From positions 1-39,129 of the forward strand of contig CANQWI010000004.1 of assembly GCA_947627515.1 (NCBI GenBank): a stretch of DNA of 39,129 nt, given 5' to 3'. Position 1 is the stretch's first letter; the number at the start of each line of letters is the position of its first letter. Under the pieces are notes generated by a model. That model was not told the origin of the DNA, did not search any database, and saw only the letters and a list, made by a program, of their open reading frames with translations. Made by a program: the position numbers and the translations under genes. Shown piece after piece: positions 10,076 to 29,700 of the stretch. The DNA comes from an uncultured Clostridia bacterium. Its GTDB lineage: Bacteria > Bacillota > Clostridia > Christensenellales > Borkfalkiaceae.

Positions 10076-13013
10076 TGTCTGATGCCTCCATTTTTTTCAG
10101 CCTCCTGTGCCTGATGAACCATGCGGTCCCGATCGAAGCGGCGACGGCAAACGTCACGCTGTCTCCGACGATCAGGAGGGTGAGCCACCAGGGCATCGTA
10201 TATCCCCAGACGACATTCGGGCCGAAGCCGTTCATGGCACAGGAATTCGCCACCGTATACAGAATATTTTTTGTGGCACGACGGATAGATGAGACGTCCG
10301 TCGGGGTCGACACCGAGGTCGGGCTCTTCCCGCCCGAAAGGTTGAGGTCCCCTCCCGCTCGGATCATCTGATCCGTATCCATATAGTTTTTGAGGTTGAA
10401 ATCGGTGATCACCGTCCCTCGGAAGCCCCATTCGCCGCGGAGAAGGGTCGTGAGGAGCGGATAGCTCCCGCCCGTCCATGTCGCGCCGATGCGGTTGAAG
10501 GAGGACATGATGCCCGTCGTCCCACCCTCCTTGACGCAAAGCTCAAAGGGAAGGAAATAAATTTCACGCATGGCCTGCTCATTTGCCCATGTGATGAGAC
10601 CCGTGGCATCCCGTTTCGTCTCCTGCTCATTCAGGACAAAGTGCTTGACGAACGTGTAGATCCCCTTCGACCTTGCGCCTTTGACGACATTTTCCGCGAG
10701 TCTCCCGGAGAGCAAACCGTCCTCGCTGTAGTACTCGAAATTTCTTCCTCCGAACTGACAGCGATGAAGATTGACCGCGGGGGCGTACCAGCCCGAATAC
10801 GGTCTCCCGTTTCCGTTCTCATTGCCGATGAGACCCTCGTTTCCGATCATCTCCCCCATCTCATTTGCAAGCTCTCTGTTCCACGAGGAGCCGAGCACGC
10901 ATTCGCTCGCATAATAGCATGTTTTGTAAACAGTATTATCGCCCATGAAGAGGGAGTAGCCCATCGGGCCGTCCGCATCCGTCGTCAGCGGCTTATCGAT
11001 GCTCTCGATGGCAAGCGTTCGGAAATTCCCCGTCGAGATCTCGTCGACCATCTGGTCCACTGTCAATTGATCGAGAAGCTCATCCCAAAGGGGATCGTCA
11101 TACTCCTTTCCGATGAGGTCATAGAGCCGAACCTCCGTATCGTCCCGCCGCAAGGTCTTTTTGCTTTGCTGCGGCATCTCAGAGGTATACCAAGGGTCGC
11201 TTTCCTTATCGTTCAAGGTATAAGTGACGGAGCCTACGATCTCATCCGAGGCCTCGAGCTGCTCAGTCACGCCCTTCAGCACCGAGAAGTTCTCAAAGTT
11301 GTTTTTACGTGAAAGATATTCCGTAATCTGCCCGCTGACATCGTCGAAGAGGTTCCCGACGGGCGCGTTCGTGCTTTCATCCGTCTCATATCGGATGTCC
11401 TCGTCGAGGGTGAACGCAAAATCGTAGGCGTCCTCCTCTGCCCAGCCGTGTGCGCTGTCTGCAATATAAATATGGTAAGTCCCTGCCTCGAGCTCATAGC
11501 CCTTAAAGCCGTTGTGATTGGCGTCCGACCAATCGTACGAGGCCATATCGCGCACATCAAGCCTCAGCGTCACAGTCGCCTCGCCGCCTGCGGGGATCGT
11601 CGATGTTTTTTGGAAATCGCCAAGCACGACCTGCGGCTTCTCGATCCCGCCCGGGGTGTAGGGCGCGGAATACCAAAGCTGGACCACATCCTTGCCCGCA
11701 TACCTTGCTCCCGTATTCCTGACCTTGACGTCAAACGTTAGCGTTCCGTCCTTGGAAAGGGCCAAGGAGTTCTTGTTTTCGGCTTCGCGCTCAAAGGTCG
11801 TGTAGCTGAGTCCGTAGCCGAAGGGATAGACGACATTCTCGCTGTACCAGGCCTCGCCCGCCTCCTTCGCCCGCGTCTCATAATAGCGGTATCCGAAATA
11901 GATCCCCTCGCGGTATTCCACAAAATAGGCACTGCTCTGCTTTCCGTGATAAGTATACCGATTGCCGTCCTCCTTGAGATTGTTCCCGAAGTTGAACCAC
12001 GTCGGATCGTTTCGAAAATCTCTCGCATAGGTATCGACTGTCCTGCCCGAGGGGACGACCTCGCCCGAAAGCACTCTTCCGAGCGCATTGAGTCCCGATG
12101 ACCCCGGGGCTCCGATCCAGAGAGCCGCCTTGATGTTCTCATGGTAGGCATAGTGCGAGGGATCGTCCAAAAAACCGAGCTCGATGGGCGACGCGCTGTT
12201 GATCACGAGAATGACTTTTTCAAAGCTCGCGCATGCCTCGGCAAGCATATCCGTTTCATTTTTGTCAAGCTGCAGATAGTGATCGTCCTTTGAACGCGCC
12301 CCGTCGATCGTCTGCGTCCCCTTCCAGTTGGTGAAGGAGCTACCGTCCCAGAACATCGTCCGCGGCAGGTCATATCCCTCCCCGCCGATGCGCGAGATGA
12401 ATACAATTGCCGCATCCGAATAGTCCGCATAGCTTCCCTGCACCGATTGAGGATAGGGAAGAGGCGATTCCGCGATCGGGAAGCCCGTGATGTCGCTCCC
12501 CATCGAGGGAACGTCGGGCCTTCCGTTTCCCGAGGCTCTGCTCTCGTAATAGGCCTTGAGCGTGGGATTGCATTGAAAGCCTGCCCGCTCGAGGCTGTCA
12601 TACACGCCTGCAGTGACCTTCGAGGCACCGCCCGCATTCGATCCCGAGCCCCCAAGCACAGGGTCTACGGAGTTTTTTCCGAACACCGTCACTCTCCCGC
12701 CCGCGATGGGAAGGGCGGCATCCTCATTCTTGAGGAGCACAAACCCTTCCTCGCAGATGCGTTCGTTCAGGGAATTTGCCGCGGCGTACACCTCCTCCTT
12801 GCTGCTGTAATCGGAAGGATAATAGATGTATTCATTCGGGTCGCCGCTCTTGATGTAGGCCTCACTTCCACCGAACATCGAGCATACGGTGTAGTACAAA
12901 AAGGAATTTTCCGAAAGCACGAGTATAATGACGAGCAGAAGGACAAACAGCGCAAAGAAGATGCATGACCAGACTGCGAGCGGTTTGTTACTTTTTGTCT
13001 TGTTCCTCGCCAC
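10056..13013 (-). CDS. Membrane-anchored GH3 glycosidase, permuted domain order (GH3_C - FnIII-like - GH3_N)
   Basis: GTG start with AAGGAGGG SD. N-terminal TM; EEGFVLLKNEDAALPI, SRIGGEGYD, VYPFGYGLSYTTF before FVKHFVLNEQETKR and GTVITDFNLKN; C-terminal TM plus RHRRLKK. Confidence 0.92.
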   Translation of the reverse strand: MARNKTKSNKPLAVWSCIFFALFVLLLVIILVLSENSFLYYTVCSMFGGSEAYIKSGDPNEYIYYPSDYSSKEEVYAAANSLNERICEEGFVLLKNEDAALPIAGGRVTVFGKNSVDPVLGGSGSNAGGASKVTAGVYDSLERAGFQCNPTLKAYYESRASGNGRPDVPSMGSDITGFPIAESPLPYPQSVQGSYADYSDAAIVFISRIGGEGYDLPRTMFWDGSSFTNWKGTQTIDGARSKDDHYLQLDKNETDMLAEACASFEKVILVINSASPIELGFLDDPSHYAYHENIKAALWIGAPGSSGLNALGRVLSGEVVPSGRTVDTYARDFRNDPTWFNFGNNLKEDGNRYTYHGKQSSAYFVEYREGIYFGYRYYETRAKEAGEAWYSENVVYPFGYGLSYTTFEREAENKNSLALSKDGTLTFDVKVRNTGARYAGKDVVQLWYSAPYTPGGIEKPQVVLGDFQKTSTIPAGGEATVTLRLDVRDMASYDWSDANHNGFKGYELEAGTYHIYIADSAHGWAEEDAYDFAFTLDEDIRYETDESTNAPVGNLFDDVSGQITEYLSRKNNFENFSVLKGVTEQLEASDEIVGSVTYTLNDKESDPWYTSEMPQQSKKTLRRDDTEVRLYDLIGKEYDDPLWDELLDQLTVDQMVDEISTGNFRTLAIESIDKPLTTDADGPMGYSLFMGDNTVYKTCYYASECVLGSSWNRELANEMGEMIGNEGLIGNENGNGRPYSGWYAPAVNLHRCQFGGRNFEYYSEDGLLSGRLAENVVKGARSKGIYTFVKHFVLNEQETKRDATGLITWANEQAMREIYFLPFELCVKEGGTTGIMSSFNRIGATWTGGSYPLLTTLLRGEWGFRGTVITDFNLKNYMDTDQMIRAGGDLNLSGGKSPTSVSTPTDVSSIRRATKNILYTVANSCAMNGFGPNVVWGYTMPWWLTLLIVGDSVTFAVAASIGTAWFIRHRRLKKMEASDNENETQ

Positions 13014-16000
13014 GATGCGTTCCCTCCTTTCTGCGGCGGGAGACGATCAGGCATCCCGAGCCAAGACAGAGCGCGGCAAGGAGAACGCCCGCACCGCCGA
13101 ATCCGAGAACGCTTCCGCATCCACCGCCGCCGGATTTTTCGCCTTCGTCAATGTGAAGGGTGAGCGTGATCTCGTCCCCCACCTTGCCGTCGGCATTCGC
13201 TACGATCGTAAAGGTAAAATCTCCGGCCTGTTCGGGTCTTCCCGTGATGATCCCGTTCTCGGAAAGCGTCAGGCCCGCGGGAAGAGAGCTTCCGTCCTTG
13301 AGCGTGTATTTGATCTCGCCCGCGCCCTGCGCCGTGTCGACATGCGCCGTATAGTCCACGCCGACCTTGCCGTTTTGAAGCGTGTTTTCATTGAAGGAAA
13401 GCCCGATCGTAATTCTGAACTCTGCCTCGATCGGATCCGCATAGGGTGCCGTCGCGATAACGGTAAAGGCATGTTCCGTGACCGTTTCCCTCGGGGTGCC
13501 CGTGATGGTCCCGCCCGAGGAGAGCGTCAGCCCTGAAGGAAGCCTACTCTCCTCCTTCAGCGTGTAGGTGATCTTCCCCTGCGCGATGCTTGCGGCGGGT
13601 AGCTTTTCCATATAGCTCACGCCGAGCTTGCCTGCAGAGAGCGTTCCCCCGCTGAAGGTCATTTCATAATGAACGCTGAGCTTGAACTGCATCGTCACGC
13701 TGCTGAAGCCGTCCGCACTCGCCGTAACGGAGAAGGCAATGTTCTCGCAGACGGCAGAGGGCGTACCCGTAATTTTGCCGTCCGAGGAGAGCGAGAGCCC
13801 TGCGGGGAGCAGCGAGCCGTTTGCCAGCGCGTAGGTGCAGGTCGGGAGAGTCCCCTCCGCATCGGCCTTGACAACGCTTGCCTTCCCGACGTCGAGCGTG
13901 CATTGCTTTCCGACGTAGACCGTACCGAGGTTCTCGTCTGCCTCATAGACGATCGCGCCGCTTTCACCGACGATCGAGATCGTAAACTCGGCCGTTCGGG
14001 TGTAGCTTGCATAGGTCGCGTCTATTTTGAAGCGATAATTGTTGCAGTCCTCCGTCGGGATCCCCGAGAGGATGCCATCCTCAGAGAGTGTCAGCCCCGC
14101 GGGGAGTGCGCTGTCCGCATTTACGCTATAGACGATCTCCGAGTCGTCGACATCGGGATAGAGCACATCGGAGATTAACGCATTCGCAACGCTTTGGCTG
14201 TAGGGAATGCCGACAATGCCTCTTTCAAGCAGGCCGCCCGAATAGGATTGGACGGGATAATGCTCACCCTGCGGGATCGTGTTGAGTGCATTGCTGTGCG
14301 CCTGTGCATACAAAATGCCGTGCGCCGCTTCGCGGAGACATGCGACCGTTGTCGAAGTCCCGGTATTATAAAGTAGCCAGGACCAGCCGAGTGCAAGGTT
14401 GCCGCCCGCACGGATCATCTGATCCGCATTGGAGAGGTTGGAAGAGTCGCCGAGATAGCTGTCCGTGACGACGCAGCCGTGGAAGCCCCATTCGTTGCGA
14501 AGGATCTCGGTGAGAAGCTCATAGCTGCCGCCCGTCCACGTTGTTCCGACACGGTTGAGTGCGGACATGATGCCGAGGGTTTTGCCGTCCTTCACGCAAA
14601 TTTCAAAGGGCTTCAGGTAGATCTCACGCATGGACTGCTCATTGAGCCAAGTGATGAGACCCGAACGGTTGGTCTCGGAGTTATTGAATGCAAAGTGCTT
14701 CAGATAGACGGGAAGTCCCTTCTCCTGCGCGCCCTTGATCTCCATCGCGGCGATCCAACCGCCGATAAGGCCCTCCTCGCCGTAATACTCGCCGTTGCGG
14801 CCGCAGAACTGGTTGCGCTGGATGTTTACGGAAGGAGCATACCACCCGCCGATCGCGTCGTTCCAGCCCCAAAGGGCGTCCTCGCCGACAAGCTTGCCGA
14901 AGCGGTAGGCAAGGTCCTTGTTCCACGACATGCCGCGGAGAAGAATGCCGCCGAAATTATAGTGCACGTCACTGCAGTTGACATTGACTCCGATGCCGCT
15001 GGGTCCGTCGCAGTTTACCATTTGACGAACGCCGAGCTCGGGATAGTTCTTGCCCGAGCAATAGGCACCGACCGTGGCAAGCTCGGTAAGCTGACTTACG
15101 GTGAATTGGTTAAGATATTCATCCCACTTGGGATCGTCATAGTCAAGCCCATGAAGCTCCCTGAGAAGAATGCCTTTCGTGACACCCGTGGTGGGCATCT
15201 CTGCCTCATAGTAGGGCTCATTCTTGTCTGCCTCGGGATCGCGGGTCTGCCGTCCGTCCGTGACGAGCCATTCCTTCAAACCGTTTTTGACGGCCTCGGA
15301 GGCCGTGAGTCTGTAGTTGAATTCGGGCCATGTCCCCTCCCAGTTATTGCGGGAGAGATATTTTTGACTGAGTTCCCCGGTGATATATTCGCTGACGTCG
15401 TCGAAGCGGTTCTCGATCTTGTTGTCGGTCGCCTCGTCTGTCTCGTATCTGAAGCCGTCGTTGACCTGATATTTTACGTTGGAGATCTCGTCATGGGCAT
15501 TCTTCATGAGACGGATCGTATATTCGCCCTTTTCGACCTCATATCCCTTGAAGCTGTTAGAGTTGGCGTCACTGTAGTCATAGGAGGCCATATCGCGCAC
15601 GGAAAAGCTCAGGGTGAGCGTCTCTTCCTCGTCGGGGGAAAGCAGCTTTGTCTTTTCAAATGCCACAAGGTTCACATAGGACTTTTCGATCCCGCCCGCC
15701 GTATAGGGAGCGGTGTAGTAGACCTGTACGACCTCCTTGCCCGCGACGGTGCCCGTGTTTTTGACCTTCACTTTAAGGGTGATCGTCCCGTCTGCCGTCA
15801 GAGCTGAATTGCCGACTGGCTCCTCGGAGACGAGCGTCTGCGTAAAGCTCGTGTAGGAAAGACCGTGGCCAAACGGATAGACGACATGCGCATTGTACCA
15901 GCTATCCCATGAGGTCGTGGTCGTGCCGTGAACGTAATCCTTGGATTTTCCCGCACTGCCGCCGCTCTGCGGATCGAGATATTGTGTCTTCTCTACCTCA

Positions 16001-17106
16001 GTCGCACTGGTATACGTCGATCCACCCTCGGTGAAGCCTCTTGTCTCGTAGTAACGGTAGCCCGCGTAAATGCCCTCGTTGTAGGTCACGTAGTTATTGA
16101 CATGACCGCCGCCACCGACGCCGCCCGAGCCTGCGAGATTGGAATACTGGTTGCCCTTGTGGGCACTGTCAACCTCCATGAGGTAGTTGCCGAAATTCTG
16201 CCATGTGGGATCGAGCTTGAAGTCTCTTGCCCATGTCGATGTCACATGTCCGCTCGGATTGATCTTGCCCAGAAGAATATCCGCAACGGCCGCCGTTCTC
16301 ACGTTGTTTGTGATGAACAGCGCAGCCTTGATGTTCTCCTGATAGGCATAATGTCCCGTATCATCCAGAAATCCCATTTCAAATGTCGACGGCGTAGCAA
16401 GGAGCACAACAACCTTCTCGAAACTCTCGCTTGCCATCGCAAGAAGCTCTGTCTCATTCTGATCGAGCTGAAGGTAATGGTCATCCTTTGCTCTCGCACC
16501 GGGGATGAGCTGTGTGGAGTCTGCTGTCCAGACCGCCTGCGACTTGCCGTCCCACATCATCGTGCGAGGTCCGTCCATTCCCTCCCTCATGACACGGTAG
16601 AAAACGACAAGGGCAGCGTCATTATAATTTTTGAAGGTGCCCTTCAGCTCGCTCGTATAGCTTGCCTGGGGAGTTTCGCCCGTTGCATACCCCGCAGAGG
16701 AGGTGTTTCCGTAGTTGTTCAGGTCAACGCCGCTACCGGAACGGTTATTATCGTTGTAAAAGCTGACGACATCGTTGTTGACCTGAAAGCCTGCGTTTTG
16801 CAAATCGAGCGCGAGATTCAATCTGTTGGAATTCTTCCCAAGGATCGTAATTTTCGCGCCCGCGCCGAGCGGCAGGGCATTGTCCTCGTTTTTGAGAAGA
16901 ACAGTTCCCTCTGCACTGATTTCGTTCGCCATAGCTGAAGCCGCTGCCGAAAGATCCGCACGTGAATCATAGTCAGATGAATACACGTTGGTCCTCGGTG
17001 CAACCTCCCCCGCTGCGGATACCCGCAGACCTGCGGGTATCACAACAGAGAAGCACATTGCAGCTGCCATAGATATGGCAACGAGCAATTTAGACTTATG
17101 CTTCAT
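12988..17106 (-). CDS. Secreted GH3 glycosidase, permuted domain order, four He_PIG-like Ig repeats and C-terminal TM anchor
   Basis: Signal peptide; EGTVLLKNEDNALPL, VYPFGHGLSYTSF, then YLKHFAFNNSETNRS and GCVVTDSYLGD. LPAGLTLSxxGxIxGxP repeated four times; GGGGCGS-TM-RRRKE tail. Confidence 0.92.
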   Translation of the reverse strand: MKHKSKLLVAISMAAAMCFSVVIPAGLRVSAAGEVAPRTNVYSSDYDSRADLSAAASAMANEISAEGTVLLKNEDNALPLGAGAKITILGKNSNRLNLALDLQNAGFQVNNDVVSFYNDNNRSGSGVDLNNYGNTSSAGYATGETPQASYTSELKGTFKNYNDAALVVFYRVMREGMDGPRTMMWDGKSQAVWTADSTQLIPGARAKDDHYLQLDQNETELLAMASESFEKVVVLLATPSTFEMGFLDDTGHYAYQENIKAALFITNNVRTAAVADILLGKINPSGHVTSTWARDFKLDPTWQNFGNYLMEVDSAHKGNQYSNLAGSGGVGGGGHVNNYVTYNEGIYAGYRYYETRGFTEGGSTYTSATEVEKTQYLDPQSGGSAGKSKDYVHGTTTTSWDSWYNAHVVYPFGHGLSYTSFTQTLVSEEPVGNSALTADGTITLKVKVKNTGTVAGKEVVQVYYTAPYTAGGIEKSYVNLVAFEKTKLLSPDEEETLTLSFSVRDMASYDYSDANSNSFKGYEVEKGEYTIRLMKNAHDEISNVKYQVNDGFRYETDEATDNKIENRFDDVSEYITGELSQKYLSRNNWEGTWPEFNYRLTASEAVKNGLKEWLVTDGRQTRDPEADKNEPYYEAEMPTTGVTKGILLRELHGLDYDDPKWDEYLNQFTVSQLTELATVGAYCSGKNYPELGVRQMVNCDGPSGIGVNVNCSDVHYNFGGILLRGMSWNKDLAYRFGKLVGEDALWGWNDAIGGWYAPSVNIQRNQFCGRNGEYYGEEGLIGGWIAAMEIKGAQEKGLPVYLKHFAFNNSETNRSGLITWLNEQSMREIYLKPFEICVKDGKTLGIMSALNRVGTTWTGGSYELLTEILRNEWGFHGCVVTDSYLGDSSNLSNADQMIRAGGNLALGWSWLLYNTGTSTTVACLREAAHGILYAQAHSNALNTIPQGEHYPVQSYSGGLLERGIVGIPYSQSVANALISDVLYPDVDDSEIVYSVNADSALPAGLTLSEDGILSGIPTEDCNNYRFKIDATYASYTRTAEFTISIVGESGAIVYEADENLGTVYVGKQCTLDVGKASVVKADAEGTLPTCTYALANGSLLPAGLSLSSDGKITGTPSAVCENIAFSVTASADGFSSVTMQFKLSVHYEMTFSGGTLSAGKLGVSYMEKLPAASIAQGKITYTLKEESRLPSGLTLSSGGTITGTPRETVTEHAFTVIATAPYADPIEAEFRITIGLSFNENTLQNGKVGVDYTAHVDTAQGAGEIKYTLKDGSSLPAGLTLSENGIITGRPEQAGDFTFTIVANADGKVGDEITLTLHIDEGEKSGGGGCGSVLGFGGAGVLLAALCLGSGCLIVSRRRKEGTHRGEEQDKK
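13140..14190 (-). repeat. Protein-level repeat block: four putative Ig (He_PIG-like) units in the GH3 protein
   Basis: LPAGLTLSEDGILSGIP, LPAGLSLSSDGKITGTP, LPSGLTLSSGGTITGTP, LPAGLTLSENGIITGRP (approximate bounds). Confidence 0.8.
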
Positions 17107-19179
17107 TTATTCCTCCGTCCAGTTAAATACGTTATTGTATGTCAGGTGCATAACGAATCCGAAGCCATAGGACGCTGTCGCATTCTCAACGTTTTCCTTC
17201 AAAAGGAAGAAATAGAATTTTTCTTCTGCGCTGTGGCGAGGGACCGCGAATCTGAAGAGCACGGTGTCGCCCGTAACGTCGAAATGAACGGAAACCTCCT
17301 CGCCTTTGGTGGGATCGGTCAGATCCGAACCGATGTAGAACTTATAATCTGCCGTCGGATCTACCTGCATATTCGAAGCCATGTTGGTCGCTCTGCCGTA
17401 GACATAGGTCGTATCCGTTCCCTCGACATATTCGGGCATGTTCGTGATCTGAAATGCTGCCCAGCGGTTGTTTCCGTCAGATCCTGTTCCGAAGGAGGAG
17501 CCCCAGCTCGAGAACAGCATGTAGCCGAGACTGTTGTCGATCGTGAATTCAGGCATGTTATCCGAATGCCAGTTGGATCCGTAATATCCCTTGCAATATC
17601 TATCCTTGTTCGCCTTGTCTTCCGGGGTATTGCTATATTCATAGGTAGCAAATTGTGCATCGGCACCGATATCCTGCATCGGGTCGCCGTTGGGATAAAG
17701 CCTCGTTGCAATCCCGAGGACCATATCGACATTGACCCATTCATCCGCGCTCCCGTTGACAGCGCCGCGGAGCTGAACGCCCCACCATGTGTCCTTCATG
17801 CCAAAGCAAAGCTCGAAGTTCGACTCAACGACCTCATTCGGGCCGACCTCAACGACCTTCGAAGCGGCGAGAATGCCGCAGAAGGAGGCGTAGACCTGTA
17901 ATTTAACGGTACATGTGCTGCTGTGATTCTTCAGAATGAGCTTACCCATGCCGCGCCCATGGTCAAGGTTGTAATATGAACCCCTGATGTTCTCGGGTGC
18001 AGCTGTTGTGCCCTGTGCGTTCCCTCTGAACGCGAGCTTGAATCCGGACAAACCCTTCAAATCGGCGTCGCCATCGCCGCCGTTGATAACCCTGGAGCCT
18101 TGACTCGGGTTATACACCTCGCCGGCAGTATTCTCTAAGGGGATAACGGGAGCCCAGACACTCTTAATGATCGGAGAATAGACCGCTGTATAGGTCGTGC
18201 TATCACGGTCCTCCATATTGAAGGTGTATTCATCAACGCCGAGATCGCCGACGCGGTTGTTTTCAACGAGGTAATCAAAGCCGACGAAGGTTTTATCCGC
18301 TGCAGCGGCATTCGCCTTGATCGTGACCTGTGTCCCGAACTTGATACCGTAGTTCGAGATCTTGGTCTCACTGCTTTCCACGTCGCCGCTATAGCCGCCG
18401 TCCGTCGCCTCGGGGACCTCGCCCTCGCCCACGCTCGTGATCGTTGCGCCGACGAGCGAGAGACGATACAGCGTATCCGTATAGACCGCCGTCGCGGAGA
18501 CATTGCCCTCAGGCATGATAAAGGTCGTCCCGCTGAGCGTCACAGTCGCGGGATCCATTGTCCATGACGACAGGGTCTTATGCTCGACGGTATTTGCCTC
18601 CAAGGTGATCTGCGTACCCGCCTCCGCCTCGGTCACGGTCTGGCCGTTCGCGTCCTTTGCGACGCCGCCGCTCACCGTAATGGTGTATTTTGCAGGGGGA
18701 AGGTCGTCCTCAACGGTGAGAAGGAGCTGGGCAGATTTCCCGCCCGCTTCGGCCTTGATGATCGTCTCACCGTCTGCGTTGAGCGTCACGGTGCCCTTTG
18801 CCCCGTCGCCCTCAACGGTCGCGACGTCGGGCTCGGAGCTCGTCCACGCCACGGTGTACGATGCGCCCTCGTCGGCCGTAACTGCCGCCTGCAGCTCAAG
18901 CGTCCTGACGGAAAGGTTTGCCGAGAGCGTCGCCTCTGCGGTCTGCCCGTTGTACTGGATCGCGACCGACTTGACCTCGGGGGTCTTCTGCTCGCCGCCC
19001 GACTGGCCGCCCGACTGACCGCCCGACTGGCCGCCCGACTGGCCGCCCTGCTGCTGCCCGGGGTTTTCACCGCCGTTGCCGCCGTTTCCGGAATTGCCTC
19101 CGCAGGCAGCCGTGGCACACACACTCAAAGCCATCATTGCGCTCAGAGCAAGTGCAAAAAATTTGTTTCTCCCTTTCAT
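17107..19179 (-). CDS. Large surface lipoprotein with SGGQ linker and Ig-like (BIG2-like) module
   Basis: Lipobox TAAC; NSGNGGNGGENPGQQQGGQSGGQSGGQSGGQSGG; YTVAWTSSEPDVATVEGDGAKGTVTLNADGETIIKAEAGGKSAQLLLTV. Stop codon immediately precedes the ATG of the next gene. Confidence 0.8.
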   Translation of the reverse strand: MKGRNKFFALALSAMMALSVCATAACGGNSGNGGNGGENPGQQQGGQSGGQSGGQSGGQSGGEQKTPEVKSVAIQYNGQTAEATLSANLSVRTLELQAAVTADEGASYTVAWTSSEPDVATVEGDGAKGTVTLNADGETIIKAEAGGKSAQLLLTVEDDLPPAKYTITVSGGVAKDANGQTVTEAEAGTQITLEANTVEHKTLSSWTMDPATVTLSGTTFIMPEGNVSATAVYTDTLYRLSLVGATITSVGEGEVPEATDGGYSGDVESSETKISNYGIKFGTQVTIKANAAAADKTFVGFDYLVENNRVGDLGVDEYTFNMEDRDSTTYTAVYSPIIKSVWAPVIPLENTAGEVYNPSQGSRVINGGDGDADLKGLSGFKLAFRGNAQGTTAAPENIRGSYYNLDHGRGMGKLILKNHSSTCTVKLQVYASFCGILAASKVVEVGPNEVVESNFELCFGMKDTWWGVQLRGAVNGSADEWVNVDMVLGIATRLYPNGDPMQDIGADAQFATYEYSNTPEDKANKDRYCKGYYGSNWHSDNMPEFTIDNSLGYMLFSSWGSSFGTGSDGNNRWAAFQITNMPEYVEGTDTTYVYGRATNMASNMQVDPTADYKFYIGSDLTDPTKGEEVSVHFDVTGDTVLFRFAVPRHSAEEKFYFFLLKENVENATASYGFGFVMHLTYNNVFNWTEE

Positions 19180-19235
19180 AATTCTCCTCCATTTTGTGAT
19201 TTTCTGACAGAATTTGGAGAGATTCTATCATGAAA

Positions 19236-19264
19236 ATTTTATCATGCTTACATTTAGATTTCAA
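19236..19264 (-). promoter_or_regulatory. Promoter of the lipoprotein-GH3-GH3-lipoprotein operon
   Basis: Minus strand TTGAAA-N17-TAAAAT. Confidence 0.65.
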
Positions 19265-19270
19265 CAAAAG

Positions 19271-19309
19271 TGACTCAAACTTGCAAAAAAACGACTCAAA
19301 CTTACAAAA
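19271..19309. promoter_or_regulatory. Candidate LytTR response-regulator binding site (two direct repeats)
   Basis: tGACTCAAACTTgCAAAA and cGACTCAAACTTaCAAAA, 21-bp period; 7 nt upstream of the -35. Confidence 0.65.
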
Positions 19310-19338
19310 TTAAATATCTTGAGCGCAAAATTCACAAA

Positions 19339-19361
19339 AAAAACGGCCGAAGCCGTCTTTT
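19339..19361 (-). terminator. Intrinsic terminator after histidine kinase
   Basis: Minus strand ACGGC-TTCG-GCCGT followed by T-run. Confidence 0.8.
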
Positions 19362-19377
19362 CATAGCCTAACTCTCC

Positions 19378-20685
19378 TTACGGGAACAGGACGATGTAGA
19401 GGTTAAAGAGATTCTCCTGAATTTCGATGTTGAGCGTGCCGCGGTACCGCTCCGTGATGGTGCGGATGCTTCTCATTCCGAAGCCGTGATTGAAGCGGTC
19501 TCCCTTGCTTGTCCGCGGCAGACCGTTTTCCATGACGATCTCCCCCTCATAGTAGTTGCTCTCGCGGATATGGACCACCTCGCCCGTCGACATGATCTGC
19601 AGATCGATCACGCGCCGATCGGGAGCCGCCTTCTCCACTGCCTCGATCGCGTTGTCGATGATGTTTCCGAAGAGTGCATAGATGTCCTCCTCCCTCATGA
19701 AATCGAGCTTTGACCCGTCGGCGATACAGCTGAATTCGATGTGCTGCTTATTGCAAAGGAGACTCTTCTCCGTGAGAATGACGTCGAGGGCCTCGTTCCC
19801 CGTCTTGACGAGGGAATCGTAGATGGAGACGGCGTCCTCAAGCTCCTGCAGGGTATCGGGATTCACCGTGCCCGAGGCTCCAAGCTCCCGTATCTGGTGC
19901 TTGATGTCGTGGCATTTCATGTTGATCATCTCGATGCTCTCCTTGGAAAATTCATACTGCGACTTGGTCTTGTCCCAAATCTGCTGCATGGCGTCAAAGG
20001 TGAGCTCGATCTTGCGCCGTGTGACGACCTCAAACTGCAGATAGAGCGAGACGATGCAGCAGAGAATGTTATACAGACTGATGATTGTAATATATCTCTT
20101 TGCATCCTCGGAGGACGGATAGTAGACGACGACCGCATTGAGAAGGATATCCACGATGAGGATGAGAATTGAGAAGATGAAGATAAATGACTTATTCACC
20201 TCGATCTCCTCCTGCAGTTTCGTCGAGAAAAAGACAAAGCAAAGGAAGTAGATGGTAACATGCAGGAACATGTACAGCGCGAAGATGAAGAGATTGGGAA
20301 AGATCTGCAGAAAGATATCCGTGCCGTAAAAGCCCGTACTGTTGGCATTCATCAGCGTCAGGAGCAGGGTATAGCTCTCATAAGCAAGATGCTGGGTCGT
20401 GTAGCCCGCAAAGCAGCAAAAGACGACCGTGAGCCAGCTCTCGCGGAAAAGCACCTTCCCGACAAGGATCGTAAAGCTGAAGATCATCAGGAAGGTGAAG
20501 GCACAGTAGAATGCATCGTGGGAGAGAATGGGAAAAAGCCACGCAAAAAGATAGCAGGCGGCAATTCCCGCGGGAAGCCGTAGCCAAAAGAGCGAGCGGC
20601 GGCGGTATCGGTAGAGAAACATGCTCTCTGCCAGCAGCAGCTCCGTCACAAACAGAAATGATTTGTAAAATTCAAACTGTGTCAT
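19378..20685 (-). CDS. GHKL-type sensor histidine kinase (AgrC-like architecture)
   Basis: About six N-terminal TM helices; NMKCHDIKHQIREL (phospho-His region), ALFGNIIDNAIEAVEKA (N box), GFGMRSIRTITERYRGTLNIE (G box). Confidence 0.92.
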   Translation of the reverse strand: MTQFEFYKSFLFVTELLLAESMFLYRYRRRSLFWLRLPAGIAACYLFAWLFPILSHDAFYCAFTFLMIFSFTILVGKVLFRESWLTVVFCCFAGYTTQHLAYESYTLLLTLMNANSTGFYGTDIFLQIFPNLFIFALYMFLHVTIYFLCFVFFSTKLQEEIEVNKSFIFIFSILILIVDILLNAVVVYYPSSEDAKRYITIISLYNILCCIVSLYLQFEVVTRRKIELTFDAMQQIWDKTKSQYEFSKESIEMINMKCHDIKHQIRELGASGTVNPDTLQELEDAVSIYDSLVKTGNEALDVILTEKSLLCNKQHIEFSCIADGSKLDFMREEDIYALFGNIIDNAIEAVEKAAPDRRVIDLQIMSTGEVVHIRESNYYEGEIVMENGLPRTSKGDRFNHGFGMRSIRTITERYRGTLNIEIQENLFNLYIVLFP

Positions 20686-20686
20686 T

Positions 20687-21415
20687 TCAGAAATTCAGAC
20701 CGAGGAATTTATTCAACTCCGAGATAAAATCCTTTTTGCGCGGGTGAGAGATCGCCACCTCATCGAATTTGTCGGAGTTCCTCCCATATGAGACATGCAG
20801 CATGTACCCGTCGATCCCAGAGACAAAGCGCATATTGACGAGGCAGTAGTTGTTGCATCTCGAAAAATAGTTCGCAAGGAGCACGGGCTCCACCTTTTTC
20901 AAGGTTCCCCTTTCCTCATAGACCTTGTCCGCGACGTGATAGATGAGCCGATGCTTCAGCACCTCGACGTAGCGGATCTCACGGACATAGAGGATCTTGA
21001 GTTGTCCGTCCTCCCTGACGGATACGGTGTCCTGCTTGCGTCGCACATCCTTTTTGCGGACACGGTCAAGCTTCATCGCAAAGCTGTAATAGGAGACGGG
21101 CTTGACGACAAAATCATCCGCATGGACCTCGTACCCGCTGATCGCATACTGCCGCATGTTCGTGATGAAGATGAGCGATACGAGATCGTCGATCTCACGG
21201 AGCCGCCGCGCCGTGTCGATCCCGTTGAGAACGGGCATATCGATATCGAGAAGGACAAGGTCATAGCGGTCGGTATACTGGGCAAGAAATACCAAGGGAT
21301 CGTTGAACCAATCGGTGTGGCAGGGGAAATCCCGCTCCTTGGCATAGCGGTCAATGACCTGCATGATGAGCTCTGCCGCCTGTTTTTCATCATCCACAAT
21401 CGCGATCCTGAACAT
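20687..21415 (-). CDS. LytTR-family response regulator
   Basis: MFRIAIVDDEKQAAELI, DLVLLDIDMPVLNGIDTARRLR, FITNMRQYAISGYEVHADDFVVKPV, then LytTR (ILYVREIRYVEVLKHRLIYH...YFSRCNNYCLVNMRFVSGI). Start 21415 has GGGAGG SD. Confidence 0.94.
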   Translation of the reverse strand: MFRIAIVDDEKQAAELIMQVIDRYAKERDFPCHTDWFNDPLVFLAQYTDRYDLVLLDIDMPVLNGIDTARRLREIDDLVSLIFITNMRQYAISGYEVHADDFVVKPVSYYSFAMKLDRVRKKDVRRKQDTVSVREDGQLKILYVREIRYVEVLKHRLIYHVADKVYEERGTLKKVEPVLLANYFSRCNNYCLVNMRFVSGIDGYMLHVSYGRNSDKFDEVAISHPRKKDFISELNKFLGLNF

Positions 21416-21445: not shown

Positions 21446-21474
21446 ATTCTAACGCATCATAATTTTTTTGTCAA
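21446..21474 (-). promoter_or_regulatory. Near-consensus promoter of the two-component operon
   Basis: Minus strand TTGACA-N17-TAGAAT. Confidence 0.75.
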
Positions 21475-21833: not shown

Positions 21834-24800
21834 CTAAATCGTCAAAATCTCCGTCTCGAAGATGGAATAGCCGTACTGTGTCGTGCGTGAGATGCCGACG
21901 ATGCGGATGTATTTTGCCCGCATGGGTGCTGTCGGCGTCACGGCGTCCGTTCTTGCACCGCCCATAAATTCGCCGTGGAATACCTCGACATAGCTTTCAT
22001 CCTCCCCTGTTTCGGAGAAATATACCTTGTACTCTCTCGCGGACGCAGCCTCCCAGATGATCCTCAGCTGGTAGATCGTCACGACCTCCTCCAAAGAGAT
22101 CAGCAGCCACTCGTCGTCGCTCCCCTGTTTGCTCTCCCAGCGCGTTCCCGTGTTGCCGTCCATGGCATGCGCCGCCCTATTGCCCCCGTTCTCGGAGGAG
22201 GCGGTCAGGGTCGCATTGCCCGAGACCCTGCGAAGAGTCAGCTCCTCCCAATGCAGAGCCGCAAGCCTTCCGCTCCCCTCCACGAGAAGCGTGTGCTTGA
22301 AGGTCAGCGAGATGGGCGCACTCTCGTAGCCGTTTGCGGTTTTGATAAGCGGAAGCGAAGTCCTGTCGAGCTTGACGGTAAAGCTTCCCTCTCCCGTAAG
22401 AATAAGCCGCCGATATTTTTGGATGCTGCCGAATGTGACACGATACTCTGCCCTGCCGCGGTCAAATCTCAATGCGCCGCCGTCGAGGGCTGCATTCTCC
22501 CCGACGGAAAAATCAGATACCTTGAGCGCACCGCAGTCGACGTACCTGTTGAATTTCTCGGTCACGGCAGTGGGATCGCAGGAGACAAAGCTGTGCGCGG
22601 GGACATATGCCCTGCCCGCGATTCCCTTTTCGGAGCGGAATACAACCTCCTGCGTCTCCCCTGTCGGATTCCAGCAGAGCGCAGTGAACACGCCGTCCTT
22701 CTCATATACGGTCGCGGATGCCCCGTTTTCTGCCCAATAGGTCTTGGTGCGCGTCCCCAATGATTTCAAAGCGTGAAGGATCGAATAGACATTGAACTGC
22801 TCGCCGTCATTGCCGATGTTGCCCTGCGTGGAGAGCAGCTCCTCATACCATCCGATCGCCTCGTCGGCGTCGTATGCGGCGACCATGGGGAGAAAGATAT
22901 GCTGCCAACCGTAGATCTCCTTATGGTCGTCGGAGACATTCCATGCGGCCTGCTCCCTTCTCATGCTTTCAATGACATTTCTCAGGCTCTCGCGTTCATC
23001 CGCGCCGAGGGCATAGCTTGTCAGAAATTCCTCCCCGGGGATCATATGGATCCCGTATGCATAGAGCGGCTCCCCGTTAAAGAAGGTACCCAAGAAGTTC
23101 GTTGCGCCATAGAGCTGGCCGATGCCGCCGTAGGGATAGAACTCGCCGAAGCTGTCGCCGTCATAGTTGAGCCAATACTGCTTGACCGCGGCAAGCTCTG
23201 TCGTAAAGCCGCAGATCGCCATCCTGCGGTAGGTCTCGTTTCCGACTGCCGTTGCATAGAGATAGGCACCCACCCAGCTGTTGAGAGCCTCGCCTGCGGA
23301 CTCCTGATTGTTGCCCGCATTGTTGTCCGCATAGCCGCCTGCCCAGCCGTGCCCCGCAAAGACGTCATAATTCCGCATGAAGGGGAACATTTCATCCTCA
23401 CGCGAGGGATTCATGTAGTCACGCATGAGAAGCTCCACCATGTCGCCGTATTCCTCCGCAAAGCTCGGGTCATAGGCGCAGAGTACCCCTGCTGCGAGGG
23501 TGAAATATCCGTAGGTGAAGTGATGGTCGGCAAGGTTGACGCCCGCCCCGAACTCGCTGTTCTTGTAGTAGAGCGTCCCCCACTCGCTGTCGTAGTAAAA
23601 ATAGGCTCCGTTCGGCTCATTCCCCTCCGTATAGGTGAACCAGTCGGTGAGGACGTAGCGGATCTTTTCGAGAAATTTGTCTCTCAGCTCGATTGCGCCG
23701 AGCTGATCCGCGGCAATGACCGCCATCGACATCGGATGAAGATTTTTCCCCTGCCAATAGGGATCGCCGTTGATGAGATTGCAATTCTGAGGCGGCTTGT
23801 CTCCCCCGTTGCTCTCGTAGAGCGTGTTCAAAAGGGAGAGCAGGGTCGCCGCAGAGTACCCGTCGTCTGTGGGCTCCGTAAATTGGGGAACGATGCCGTA
23901 GAAGCGGTCGCACGTTTCATACGCGTTTCCGACATGGCCGCGCAGCTCGCCGTGCACGCCTGCATAGGCGTAGCTTTTCTTCAGATCGTCCTCTGCCTTT
24001 TTATACTGATGAGGAAGATAGGCCGAATAGGCCTCCGCTGTCCCGCGCACGTTCATCGTCTGCAGGCGATATTCCGTGAGAACGGCGTTGGTCTCCTCGT
24101 TGAAGGTATACGACACGCGGGTGCCGATCACAAAGGCGTAGCCATGCTCATGGAGAAGGGCAACCTCCGCAGGGTCGGGCGTGCCATGCGGCTCGGCCTC
24201 GTTGGCTTGATTTTGCGAAATGGTGACCACCCCTGACATCGCCCCGACGGAGAGGTAATTCCCCTCTGTCATGAGGAGATGAAGGCCGTCCTCCGCACGC
24301 ACAACCTGCGTGTTCTGCGGGGTGTTCAGGACGTAAAACCGCTCCTCGTATTCACGGTTATCGCCGTTTGGCGTACCGCCGACGTAGCCGCTGTGTGTAC
24401 GGACGCAGACAATGACGCCCTCCCCCGTATACGTCCCGCGCTCAAGAATGTTGCCCTGCAGATCATAGACCGCAAGCAGATTTTCCGCAGAAATCACGGC
24501 CTTGTCGGGCTCGGCAAAGAAGAAATACCCATAGAGTGCTCCCTGCGAGAGGTAAACGGTCATTTTGTCGACGTCGCTGTCGTCGGTCATGACGGCTGAG
24601 ATCGAATAATCGTCATACCCCGTCACCCGCACCTGCGTCTCATCCTTGAGACCCGCATAGCCGATGCGAAGATCGTGCACGTCCTGATCGATGGTCTGCG
24701 AGCCGTTCCCGGGATACCCGCCAGAATAATAGCCGTCACCGGGATTGGTCAGCCAAAGGCCTTTATCGTCAAAGGTCGCAACGAGCGGATTGAGATACAT

Positions 24801-26675
24801 GTTGTGGCCCTTGTCGTTGATTAGAAGAGATTGCCACCAGTCATTGCTCGGCACAGGCCTCGTGCGCAGGGAGGCGTCGAGGAAGGTCACAAGCTTTGCA
24901 GAGGGAAAAGTGACATCGCCCGTCACGTAGCTGCCGTTTTTGCCCTGAAGAATTTCAAATTCGGGGAAGGCAAGCGAGACGTCGTAATCAATTTTCTCCT
25001 CGTTCGGGTACTGCGAATGCACCCTCATCCCCTCGAGCATAAAGCGGGTCCCGCCCTGCCGTGTGAGGGTGTCGCCGTTCTGATAGTCGATGATGCGCAA
25101 ATACCGCGCCTCCTCAAAAAGATACACGCTCTGCTTCTCAAGCCCGCCATGCGTCTGACGGAACACCGTCCGATAATTTTGCCCGTCCGTGCTGATCTGC
25201 AGGTCGTAGTATTTTCCCTTTCTTCCGTCGTCGCCCTTCCAGCGAAGGTCGACCCTGCCAACGTCCTTTACCTCGCCGAGGTCGACGGTCTGCGGAGACA
25301 GGTCATGCGGGCTCTCCCACCATGTGCCCCAGTCGCGGAGAGCGTTAGACGCCGCATGCCCCTCCATGCTCTCGGCCTGCGCGGTCACATTCCGAAGCTC
25401 CGCGCCGCCGAGACGAAAGATCGTCTGCGAGATCCGATAGGCAGACATGTAGAAGCTTCTCTGATGCAGGTCAAGCCGTATATATCTTGCCGTAAGGACC
25501 CCATCGCGGAAGGCATTCCCGTTCCGCTGTACGGTACGGTAAAGGCTGCCGTCCGTGGAGATACTCACATCATAGGAGAGCGGCGAGCCGTCCTTCCAGC
25601 TTATCTCCATCGAATCAAGCTGCGTCACGCTCCCGAGATCAAAGACGATCTCCTGTTCATCCGTGATCGGGCTCTTTTCGGAATCGTAGAGCACGGGGAA
25701 TCTCTCTGCGGGGATCACCGTGCCCTTTTTTCCGAACACGGAAAGCTCATACACAGAGTAGCCATAGTCGAGCGCACGACGATGGCAGGCAAGACGGATA
25801 TAGCGGGCCGATTCGTTGACGGAGTAGACGGCCGCAACGCCCTGACGGAATGTAAAATTGTCCTCGCTGTGCACCGTTTGAAACCCCTCTCCGTCGTCGG
25901 AGAACTGGATGTCAAACTGCTTGGCATAGGCCGCCTCCCAGAGGATGCTGACCTCCTCGACGGGAACAACCGCACCGAGGTCGACGGTGAGCGTGACCTC
26001 ATCGACGCCGTGAACGCTCTCCCAGCGGGTGCCATTGTCGCCGTCAAATGCTTTGGAGGCCTTTGCATCCCCGTACTCGCTCGTCGAGGACGCGGCGCAC
26101 CCCCGCGCGATGTTGTAGCTCTCCTCTGCCTCATAGATAAACACAGACTCCTCGCGGCCGATCGCGGGGTTGTTTGTGACAGTCACCCTGCGGACATGGG
26201 TTGCTGTTTTTCCGTCAACAGTCGCCGAATAGGTCAGCTCGTACGTGCCCGCACGGGAGGTATCCGCAAGGCCGCGGACGCTGACATAGGGACGGATATC
26301 CTCCCCGTAAACGCCCGTCGCCATGACTCCCTGCATGGGGTCAAAATATTTACCCGCCTGAACAGAAATATCGTCTGCCGCAATGACGGGCTCCCGCTTT
26401 ACAGGGGGGTCCTCGGGCTTGCCATCGTCAGGCTTGCCGTCGTCAGGCTTCCCATCATCGGTCTTTCCGTCGTCTGGCTTCCCATCATCGGTCTTTCCGT
26501 CGTCTGGCTTCCCATCATCGGGCTTCTGTTCCTCGGGCTTGGTCTGCTGCCCTGAACCGCCGCTCGGTGCCTCGGATGCGGGCGGGGTAGACGGCTCTCC
26601 TCCGAAGCCGCATGCGGAGAGAGAAAGCACCCCGCACATCAGAAATGCCATGAGGCAGATGAATTTTTTTCGCAT
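21834..26675 (-). CDS. Lipoprotein GH81 endo-beta-1,3-glucanase with multiple F5/8-type-C (discoidin-like) modules
   Basis: Lipobox LSAC; PDDGK repeats; VPSNDWWQSLL; FGAGVNLADHHFTYGYFTLAAGVLCAYDPSF, RNYDVFAGHGWAGGYADNNAGNNQESAGEALNSW. AxxSTSEYGDAKASKAFDGDNGTRWES-type modules at the N side and C-terminus. Start at internal Met 26675. Confidence 0.92.
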   Translation of the reverse strand: MRKKFICLMAFLMCGVLSLSACGFGGEPSTPPASEAPSGGSGQQTKPEEQKPDDGKPDDGKTDDGKPDDGKTDDGKPDDGKPDDGKPEDPPVKREPVIAADDISVQAGKYFDPMQGVMATGVYGEDIRPYVSVRGLADTSRAGTYELTYSATVDGKTATHVRRVTVTNNPAIGREESVFIYEAEESYNIARGCAASSTSEYGDAKASKAFDGDNGTRWESVHGVDEVTLTVDLGAVVPVEEVSILWEAAYAKQFDIQFSDDGEGFQTVHSEDNFTFRQGVAAVYSVNESARYIRLACHRRALDYGYSVYELSVFGKKGTVIPAERFPVLYDSEKSPITDEQEIVFDLGSVTQLDSMEISWKDGSPLSYDVSISTDGSLYRTVQRNGNAFRDGVLTARYIRLDLHQRSFYMSAYRISQTIFRLGGAELRNVTAQAESMEGHAASNALRDWGTWWESPHDLSPQTVDLGEVKDVGRVDLRWKGDDGRKGKYYDLQISTDGQNYRTVFRQTHGGLEKQSVYLFEEARYLRIIDYQNGDTLTRQGGTRFMLEGMRVHSQYPNEEKIDYDVSLAFPEFEILQGKNGSYVTGDVTFPSAKLVTFLDASLRTRPVPSNDWWQSLLINDKGHNMYLNPLVATFDDKGLWLTNPGDGYYSGGYPGNGSQTIDQDVHDLRIGYAGLKDETQVRVTGYDDYSISAVMTDDSDVDKMTVYLSQGALYGYFFFAEPDKAVISAENLLAVYDLQGNILERGTYTGEGVIVCVRTHSGYVGGTPNGDNREYEERFYVLNTPQNTQVVRAEDGLHLLMTEGNYLSVGAMSGVVTISQNQANEAEPHGTPDPAEVALLHEHGYAFVIGTRVSYTFNEETNAVLTEYRLQTMNVRGTAEAYSAYLPHQYKKAEDDLKKSYAYAGVHGELRGHVGNAYETCDRFYGIVPQFTEPTDDGYSAATLLSLLNTLYESNGGDKPPQNCNLINGDPYWQGKNLHPMSMAVIAADQLGAIELRDKFLEKIRYVLTDWFTYTEGNEPNGAYFYYDSEWGTLYYKNSEFGAGVNLADHHFTYGYFTLAAGVLCAYDPSFAEEYGDMVELLMRDYMNPSREDEMFPFMRNYDVFAGHGWAGGYADNNAGNNQESAGEALNSWVGAYLYATAVGNETYRRMAICGFTTELAAVKQYWLNYDGDSFGEFYPYGGIGQLYGATNFLGTFFNGEPLYAYGIHMIPGEEFLTSYALGADERESLRNVIESMRREQAAWNVSDDHKEIYGWQHIFLPMVAAYDADEAIGWYEELLSTQGNIGNDGEQFNVYSILHALKSLGTRTKTYWAENGASATVYEKDGVFTALCWNPTGETQEVVFRSEKGIAGRAYVPAHSFVSCDPTAVTEKFNRYVDCGALKVSDFSVGENAALDGGALRFDRGRAEYRVTFGSIQKYRRLILTGEGSFTVKLDRTSLPLIKTANGYESAPISLTFKHTLLVEGSGRLAALHWEELTLRRVSGNATLTASSENGGNRAAHAMDGNTGTRWESKQGSDDEWLLISLEEVVTIYQLRIIWEAASAREYKVYFSETGEDESYVEVFHGEFMGGARTDAVTPTAPMRAKYIRIVGISRTTQYGYSIFETEILTI
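26415..26530. repeat. Minisatellite encoding (K/T)PDDG linker of the GH81 protein
   Basis: 15/30-bp units, e.g. GTCTTTCCGTCGTCTGGCTTCCCATCATCG in two identical tandem copies. Confidence 0.9.
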
Positions 26676-26750
26676 AGCTGCTCCTGAAAATAAGCGGGGC
26701 CCCCGCTCTCCGACCTGCAAGAGCGGGAATCCCCGTGCTGTTCTGTTACG

Positions 26751-29700
26751 TTATGATTCCCGCACTTCCTCAGGCAGGGTGGTAAGAACTCCCTCCGACC
26801 AATCGCCGTCCTCGAAGTAGAGGCTATTCTCGTCGACATAGACCCTGGTGCTGTACGTCCAGCCGTCACGGATATCCATGCTTTCTAAGCTATACCACTC
26901 CTTGATCTTATTGCTCAAATCATTTGCCGAGCTCCACGCGTTGCTCACGTCGCCGACAGAGAAGCTATCGCTCGTCTTATCCTTATCCTTGTAGATAACG
27001 ACCTTGCCGTCCTCCTCAAAGAGGAACACGGAATAGCTATCATTGTCCTTTGTGAATTTGAGCTCAACGTATGCCGCCTTTTCGACGCTGAAAATCTCAC
27101 CTCTGCCGAGCCCCTCGGTCGGCTTGAGATATTCCAAATTCGTATCATTGTTTGCGAAATTGAACTGCGCATAACCGGGAGCCTTCACGTCCTTTTCGGT
27201 GAAGGTGTGCTCCTTCACCTCCCGTGCGCCGTCCTTTGTTGCATAAACAAGGTCCGAATCCGAATAGCCGAGCTCTATGCCCTTCTCATTGGCAATGAGC
27301 TGCATCGCGAATACGAAATGATACGTCGCATATTCGACGTCCTCGAGCGTCGTGCCCGCTTCCTTGAGCTCTTGGAACCACGCCATGCGGATCGTCTCGT
27401 TGAGTGCGGAATTTTTCCCGTTGCTCTTATTCCACGATACGGCTAGCTGAGCATTGATACGATAGGTCGCATAGGGCGTAGCCTTCGAGAAATCGTACGT
27501 CTGAGGATCGCCGATATCCTTCGTATCATAGATATAGATGAGTGCGCCGTCGTGGAATGCGCCGTCCGTCGTCACGACCTGCCGCTTGAAATCGATGTCG
27601 CCGTTCCCGTCGCCGAGGCTCCACGCGCCGTTATTCAGATTGGGCTTTAACTTCCCGCCGCGGAGGGCACCGTCAAAGCTGCGATAAATGGGATAGGATT
27701 CCCCGATCTTGTCCGCATAAGGACTGTCCTCGGCAAATGCAAGCCTGATTTTTATCTCATAGCCCTCTCCCGCGAGATCGTTGAAGAGGCCAAAGAGCAC
27801 CTGCTTCAGAGTACCCTCCTGAAGGATCAAGGAATGCACATAATCGGAGGAAAGCGGCTCATAGTAGTCCTTCGTCTCACCGTTATGGGTCACCTCGAGA
27901 TGGAGACGGACAAGCTCACTCGCTTCCCCATTCGTGAGGCTTTCCAGCCCGAGAAGGGCCGCAAGGGATCCGTCGCTGACGGCTGCCTGAATATTCAATT
28001 CCTCATCCCCTTGGAATTTCGGCATGGGAAGACGCTCTTTTGCATCCTCTACGTTGACGTCCTCAAGCACGATCGGTGCACTGGCAGACGTACTGGTAAT
28101 GACGGAGACGTGGAGCTTCCCCTCCTCCTCCCAACGCTGGTAGGCGAGAAGAGCCACCGAAATCGTCCCCGAAAGGCCTGCCTTTGCGGCATAGTAGCGG
28201 AGAGCTTCGGGATTGTCGAAATCATCCTTGGTGCCGCTTGCAAAGGGAAGGCCGTTGATCACGATACTGTCGCCGATGCCCTTTTTGTCGATATCCTCAG
28301 CAAGATATGCCTCGATGAAGGTTTCTTGGTTCGCTGTGCCGCCGATAAGCGTCAGCTTGTGATCGGGATACGCTTCGCCCGTGTCGTTGTCGAAATAGAC
28401 GATCCCGCTGTGTGCGCCGAGCGCAAGCGTCTTCTCACCCTCCTCCATGGGATCGTTCACCGTGTAGGCGAGGGTAATGGGCTTGTTCTCTTTGAAAGCA
28501 TTCGTAAAGGAGACACGCGCGATATAGACCTGTCTCTCCTCGTCATAGGTCACCTCGGACTCAAGCGGAGTCTTTTCCCCGCCTTCGACTTGCTCCGAGA
28601 TCACGATCGTGGGAGTTTCGTCGAGCTTCAACGCTTCGCCCGCAACGTTTTTGTACTGCAAGATCAGCATGAATACGGGCTGTTCGGCGGGTCTGTCGCT
28701 GTTGTAGAGCACCTTTTCGTTCTTTTCGACGCCTGCGACCGCCTTCATCATATTTTCCTTCGCCGTGGAAAGCTGTGTCCTGGCCGCCTCGATATCATCG
28801 AACAAGCTCTTCGCATGGTCACCGAGGGCAGAAATGCGTGCTTCAAGTGCGCCAAGCGCGTCATAGTTATCCTTGGTCGCCGCGGTCTTGTCGGAAAGCG
28901 CGGCTTCGATGTCGGTCTTCAGTGCGTCGACCGTCGCCTGAAGCTGTGCATCGGCATCCGTCTGCGCCTTGGTTAGTGCCTGATATTTATCAGAGACCTC
29001 GCTGTCATTCTTTACATAATTTTCGTATTCGTCATAGCCCTGCAGCAGTGCCGCGATTTCGGTCAGGGCCGCCTCTGCCGTGGCGTCATTTTCGGGCTCA
29101 AGCTCTGTCACTGCTCCGCTCAGCTTTTGGACTGCGGAAGCAATTTCGCTCTCCCATGCCATCAGGGTCGCCTCCAGCGCGGCGATTTTATCCGTCTCTG
29201 CCGTCGTCACGAGCCCGCCTGCGAGGGTGGAAAGCCCGTCCTTTGCGGTCTTTGCGGCGTTGATCGCGGCTTCAAGCTCGGTCGCGGAGGTCTTTGCGGT
29301 CTGCTTTCCCTCAGCGGCCGTAATGAGCGCGGCGAAGGCGTCGTGCGCGGTCTTGGCAGTTGCCGTCTCAGTCGTATAGGCCGTCTTCTTGGTTTCGAGC
29401 GCGGTCTTGGCGTTTGCGGCGTCCGTCTTATCCTCTTCGGTAAGAGCCGCAAAGGCCGTCTCCGCTTCCTCGATCGCGGTCTTGACCTCTGCAGCCTTAG
29501 CCTGTGTGCTGTTCTGCGTCAGCGTCTCGATCCCGTTGACCTTAGCGGCAAATGCCTTCACAGCCTCGGAGGTCGTATCCGACGTATAAATGTAGGACAC
29601 GGCCGCAGAATAATTGCTGTCCGTGTATTTCCCCTCTCCCGTTGCCTTGACCGCAAGGGAGTTTGCCCCCTCGACAAGCTTTGCGGTGACGGTCGTAAGG

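Follow-up and report, generated by a model that had tools for sequence, protein, structure and literature searches.

A pair of direct repeats in a 39,129-nucleotide stretch of DNA from an uncultured Clostridia bacterium (the whole stretch is called the window below) is, judging from sequence comparison, the probable operator of the adjacent LytTR response regulator (RR), which would thereby control an operon of GH3 enzymes. The probability of this reading is put at about 0.9. A switch of this type is already known. Dozens of sister systems exist in uncultured gut Clostridia, each with its own version, and the regulator residues that apparently recognise the word vary with its letters. The interest lies in an expanded, locally wired family and in a likely recognition code.

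The repeat pair and the GH3 promoter

The sequence GACTCAAACTT is present twice, at 19272-19282 and 19293-19303, as a preliminary description of this DNA had claimed. The extended units 21 bp apart that it reported were also recovered, a repeat finder giving two directly adjacent 21-nt copies (19266-19286 and 19287-19307) with 86% identity and a period of 21 bp. On the minus strand the two predicted LytTR half-sites are 12 bp each and lie 21 bp, i.e. two helical turns, apart, the distal one being TAAGTTTGAGTC (19293-19304) and the proximal one CAAGTTTGAGTC (19272-19283). Their 9-bp cores, TAAGTTTGA (19304-19296) and CAAGTTTGA (19283-19275), are separated by 12 bp, and the proximal core ends 10 bp before the -35 element. 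In LytTR operators two ~9-bp direct repeats with 12 (11-13) bp between them stand just before -35, at a distance of 4-11 (mostly 10) bp; the values found here are 12 and 10 bp. The gap of 7 nt between repeat and promoter given previously is correct if counted from the 11-mer but not if counted from the canonical 9-mer, where it is 10 bp. The LytTR half-site consensus known from work on AgrA is [TA][AC][CA]GTTN[AG][TG]. The two copies match it at 8/9 and 7/9 positions, in keeping with the earlier suggestion that the minus-strand core is close to an AgrA-type box.

When the region 19180-19377 was dinucleotide-shuffled 5000 times, 2 shuffles had an exact repeat of 11 bp or more at spacing 21, and 43 had one at any spacing from 12 to 59. 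The exact repeat pair occurs once in its own assembly (1.53 Mb, 71% complete) in a pattern search, even when 3 mismatches are allowed; a regulon search with a degenerate pattern gave extra matches, all of them weaker.

The predicted promoter that faces the lipoprotein/GH3/GH3/lipoprotein operon was confirmed on the minus strand at 19264-19236. It consists of a -35 TTGAAA (19264-19259), 17 bp, and a -10 TAAAAT (19241-19236) preceded by TG, with the same spacing in orthologs. The order on the minus strand is the kinase stop, a terminator hairpin (19362-19337), the repeats, the promoter, a ribosome-binding site GGAGGAG recognised by sequence (19184-19190), and the lipoprotein start at 19179. The hairpin is a predicted intrinsic terminator 3' of the kinase gene (19337-19362, minus strand), with hairpin-like sequences at the equivalent place in three orthologous clusters (L032-L034, described below), and it separates the unit of RR and sensor kinase (HK) from the GH3 operon. 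The RR-HK unit has a near-consensus promoter of its own, TTGACA-17-TAGAAT (21446-21474, minus strand), and a near-consensus promoter is kept in L032-L034. No cognate LytTR repeats were found within 400 bp upstream of the RR, either in the window or in these orthologs, so that a search for autoregulation of RR-HK gave no sign of it in either.

The regulator, the kinase and the genes of the operon

The assignments of regulator and kinase made earlier hold. The RR (20687-21415, minus strand, 242 aa) has Response_reg and LytTR domains by Pfam, the latter matching PF04397 with 37.9 bits against a cutoff of 22.6, and the kinase (19378-20685, minus strand, 435 aa) is a membrane sensor with a GHKL ATPase domain (PF14501, HATPase_c_5) that aligns with its orthologs. 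The content of the operon is likewise as described. Its first gene encodes a 690-aa lipoprotein with Big_2/InlB-like domains by domain match (17107-19179), followed by GH3 enzymes of 1372 aa (12988-17106) and 985 aa (10056-13013) and, last, by a small lipoprotein of 226 aa (9395-10075) with a weak CBM-like match, which is also present in the orthologous clusters; all are on the minus strand. By Pfam, both enzymes have the GH3_C domain before the GH3 N domain. Besides this permuted domain order they have hydrophobic C-terminal segments, and their NCBIfam matches fall far below the cut-off, the best being to alpha-L-arabinopyranosidase. No sugar transporter was found in the GH3 cluster, the ABC genes at 34756-38318 standing apart on the opposite strand.

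Beyond a tRNA-Ser upstream of RR-HK lies a lipoprotein-type protein with a GH81 C-domain and four F5/8 type C domains (21834-26720), and then a 1090-aa lipoprotein without a Pfam family (26751-30023). A strong cognate LytTR pair was looked for ahead of these two genes and none was found. Two tandem repeats in the window, of 12 bp at 18994-19048 and of 30 bp at 26409-26540, encode low-complexity lipoprotein linkers (GGQS; PDDGK-type).

Orthologous clusters and linkage to GH3 genes

The cluster, in the order RR-HK-lipoprotein-GH3-GH3-lipoprotein, is found in three genomes of the same genus (L032-L034), with RRs that are 64-67% identical to that of the window. In L033 the RR and the second GH3 gene are missing from the simple ORF table, longer or overlapping frames taking their places, and the RR was recovered by homology. 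Retention of the repeats upstream of orthologous operons had been named as a check, and in all three clusters the repeats, their spacing and a TTGAAA-17-TATnnn promoter are kept. The half-site pairs are TAAGTTTGAGCC/CAAGATTGAGCC, TAAGGTTGTGCC/CAAGTTTGGGTC and TAAGTTTAGGAC/CAAGATTGGTAC, the last being the diverged half-sites of L034. This conservation, together with the 9-12-9 geometry followed by ~10 bp, supports the earlier proposal that the adjacent RR regulates the GH3 operon. The closest relatives that bear a name are uncultured Clostridia, many of them from 'Lapin' (presumably rabbit-gut) metagenomes.

Many RR-HK pairs of the same type are present in the genus and in related families. Among 80 distinct systems whose downstream sequence extended for 3.5 kb or more, 65 had a GH3-like gene on the same strand that started within 6 kb downstream. 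By our own estimate the chance of a GH3 gene on a given strand in a random 6-kb stretch is below 3%, a 1.7-Mb genome having at most about 15 GH3 genes. The genome of the window itself contains two further LytTR regulators, and a GH3 gene is near all three.

Repeat spacing in sister systems

The collection of sister systems comprised 157 distinct kinase loci, with an RR upstream in 147. Across 99 regions between the kinase gene and the next co-directional gene, direct-repeat strength peaked at a spacing of 21 (z=8.0), with 21 the best spacing in 23 regions and 20 in 11; the loci are related to one another, which makes this and the other spacing z-scores optimistic upper bounds. An initial 350-bp scan without restriction to noncoding DNA was noisy. 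In a promoter-anchored test on 85 distinct LytTR/GHKL loci, in which only the best predicted promoter served as anchor, 9-mers 21 bp apart and ending 7-8 bp upstream of -35 matched at z=9.0. Over spacings 8-45 the maximum outside 20-22 was z=3.6, spacing 21 retained z=6.4 when only G/C matches were counted, and spacings 10, 11, 31 and 32 showed no enrichment in this set. For 48 held-out loci, spacing 21 gave z=7.3 (5.0 with G/C matches only) and the runner-up, spacing 9, gave 4.9 (2.8). The repeats are weak or undetectable in many sister loci, in the lower half of the ranked site list.

An EM model seeded with the operator family of the window settled on n[AC]AGnTT[AG][TC]G, and for most of its good sites the distance to -35 was exactly 10 bp. 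Its core, [AC][AC]GnTT[AG], agrees with the LytTR consensus from AgrA, and its sites agree with the published LytTR geometry including a minority with an 11-bp spacer (PMC6193735). In eight loci (L087, L095, L099, L100, L043, L144, L189 and L049) the repeats have a period of 20 instead of 21 bp, i.e. an 11-bp spacer. The C-terminal motifs of the regulators in this group are often of ISxPRH- or ISQPR-type, and repeat spacing may go with the regulator subgroup. At L049:5583-5720, before the gene that follows the two-component system (TCS), there are apparently two tandem pairs of LytTR-like half-sites, and at L070 (G052:C94) about four 10-bp repeats in a row, AAAAGTTATC, occupy the operator position after the kinase gene. 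Control intergenic gaps not beside a TCS in the same loci had a smaller 21-bp excess (z=4.3; 21 was the best spacing in 17 of the 234 gaps), which perhaps reflects further targets or shared regulation nearby.

Likely recognition of the operator word by the LytTR domain

The operator words differ from paralog to paralog. Operators were more alike where the LytTR domains were more nearly identical (Mantel r=0.45, p<0.001), and partial correlations were 0.32 for operator against LytTR domain given the receiver and 0.00 for operator against receiver given the LytTR domain. The operator words follow the LytTR domain and not the receiver. With sister systems carrying their own 21-bp repeats at the equivalent position, this bears out the LytTR reading first put forward for the repeats.

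The strongest residue-base associations were between residue 224 and half-site position 1 (H with A, 36/38; R with C, 26/32; Q with T, 6/10), residue 225 and position 2 (P with A, 69/70; R with C, 11/12) and residue 169 and position 11 (R with C, 44/52; T with A, 12/14; Y with T, 5/8). Bases were then predicted for held-out sites chosen with positions 1, 2 and 11 masked, the strictest cut being 23 loci. The base was predicted correctly in 31 of 38 cases from residue 224 (null 0.40, p=0.0005), in 23 of 34 from residue 169 (null 0.29, p=0.0005) and in 23 of 28 from residue 225 (null 0.70, p=0.05). On supported branches of the tree there were 3 contrasting pairs for residue 224, with the base changing the same way in 0.7, the opposite way in 0.0 and not at all in 2.2, and 3 pairs for residue 169 (R vs T/C/W/A/S), with 2.8 the same way. 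Thus the contrasts are consistent for residue 169 and mostly undecided for residue 224. As there are too few independent contrasts, shared ancestry may lie behind the associations, and the code is offered as a strong lead and termed likely.

This LytTR set is related in sequence to the LytTR domain of AgrA, whose structure has been solved (3bs1), and an alanine mutant of AgrA R233 fails to bind DNA (PMC4227749). Residues 224 and 225 align with R233 to within one residue, the placement being uncertain to that extent (224 by eye, 225 by MAFFT), and residue 169 aligns with AgrA Y183. The fuller proposal, that these are parallel LytTR circuits in which each GH3 operon has a private word read through residues 224, 225 and 169, is given even odds. 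If true, it would mean that LytTR domains have a natural recognition code; no such residue-base code was found in the literature searched.

Proposed mechanism and alternatives

The RR and HK would be made from their own near-consensus promoter, and the membrane kinase, on sensing a signal, would presumably phosphorylate the regulator. Each half-site could then be occupied by a LytTR domain, the two sitting 21 bp apart on one face of the DNA, and the proximal domain, 10 bp upstream of -35, would activate TTGAAA-17-TAAAAT, leading to synthesis of the lipoprotein, the two GH3 enzymes and the second lipoprotein.

Activation rather than repression is suggested by the position of the site. Since the argument for activation is one of position, and since the genome has two more LytTR regulators, the site may conceivably be a LytTR site at which the regulator represses the operon or at which a distant LytTR regulator acts. 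This is considered unlikely: repeats placed just upstream of -35 go with activation in LytTR systems that have been characterised (PMC6193735), and the other two regulators have GH3 neighbours of their own and the words are regulator-specific.

Direct repeats about two helical turns apart are used by several regulator families, so the repeats might belong to another DNA-binding protein, for example one of OmpR/PhoB-type with tandem repeats, the LytTR system adjoining them by coincidence. That would be hard to square with the recurrence of 21-bp repeats at the equivalent position in many loci with nothing in common but the LytTR/kinase pair, and with a word that varies with the LytTR domain and not independently with the receiver. 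The consensus and the distance to -35 are also LytTR-like (PMC6193735), and this explanation is held to be very improbable. Least credible of all, to the point of being negligible, is that phased A-tracts, an UP element or a chance repeat produced the pattern. The region around the repeats is indeed AT-rich with A/T runs, but the rarity of the repeat in shuffled sequence and its retention in orthologs speak against chance. Phasing of A-tracts was rejected on the G/C-only matches, which still give 21, and on the lack of a comparable signal at spacings 10, 11, 31 and 32. The operator reading for the adjacent LytTR regulator is therefore preferred.

Comparison with known systems

On this evidence the repeat pair is very probably the switch by which a sensor-kinase system turns on a neighbouring operon for sugar-cutting enzymes, which would provide concrete wiring for GH3-family control in uncultured gut Clostridia. 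In LytTR regulatory systems of Streptococcus mutans and others (HdrR, BrsR) there are two 9-bp direct repeats with 12 bp (sometimes 11) between them, typically followed by a further 10 bp to -35, and the word is poorly conserved between systems (PMC6193735). The GH3-operon site has the same repeat geometry and shares the low conservation of the word. However, HdrR and BrsR are one-component LytTR proteins, each with an inhibitory membrane protein and regulating its own operon (PMC6193735), whereas the GH3 system has a receiver-LytTR regulator with a GHKL kinase, lacks a site at the RR-HK promoter and would act on the GH3 operon, which places it outside that class (no receiver, inhibitory membrane protein, autoregulation).

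AgrA at agr P2/P3 of Staphylococcus aureus resembles the GH3 system in its LytTR response regulator, GHKL-type sensor and tandem repeats. It differs in targeting its own operon and RNAIII, in serving peptide quorum sensing and in its half-site word; no agrB/agrD-like genes were recognised among the Pfam-annotated neighbours in the window. In the Gram-positive polysaccharide utilisation loci (gpPULs) of Roseburia and E. rectale, too, glycoside hydrolases are tied to a regulator, and in occasional cases, such as Ros-7, this is a LytTR response regulator accompanied by an HK (PMC5320581). A gpPUL needs enzyme, transporter and regulator, the last mostly LacI or AraC (PMC5320581), whereas the cluster described here has GH3 enzymes, lipoproteins and a regulator without a sugar transporter. 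The closest parallel for the recognition code is the LacI family, a different protein family in which local operators and regulator residues likewise reveal a residue-base code (PMC2978694). The many paralogs described here would be a natural experiment on the choice of DNA word by the beta-strand LytTR domain, which is used by regulators of virulence and bacteriocins.
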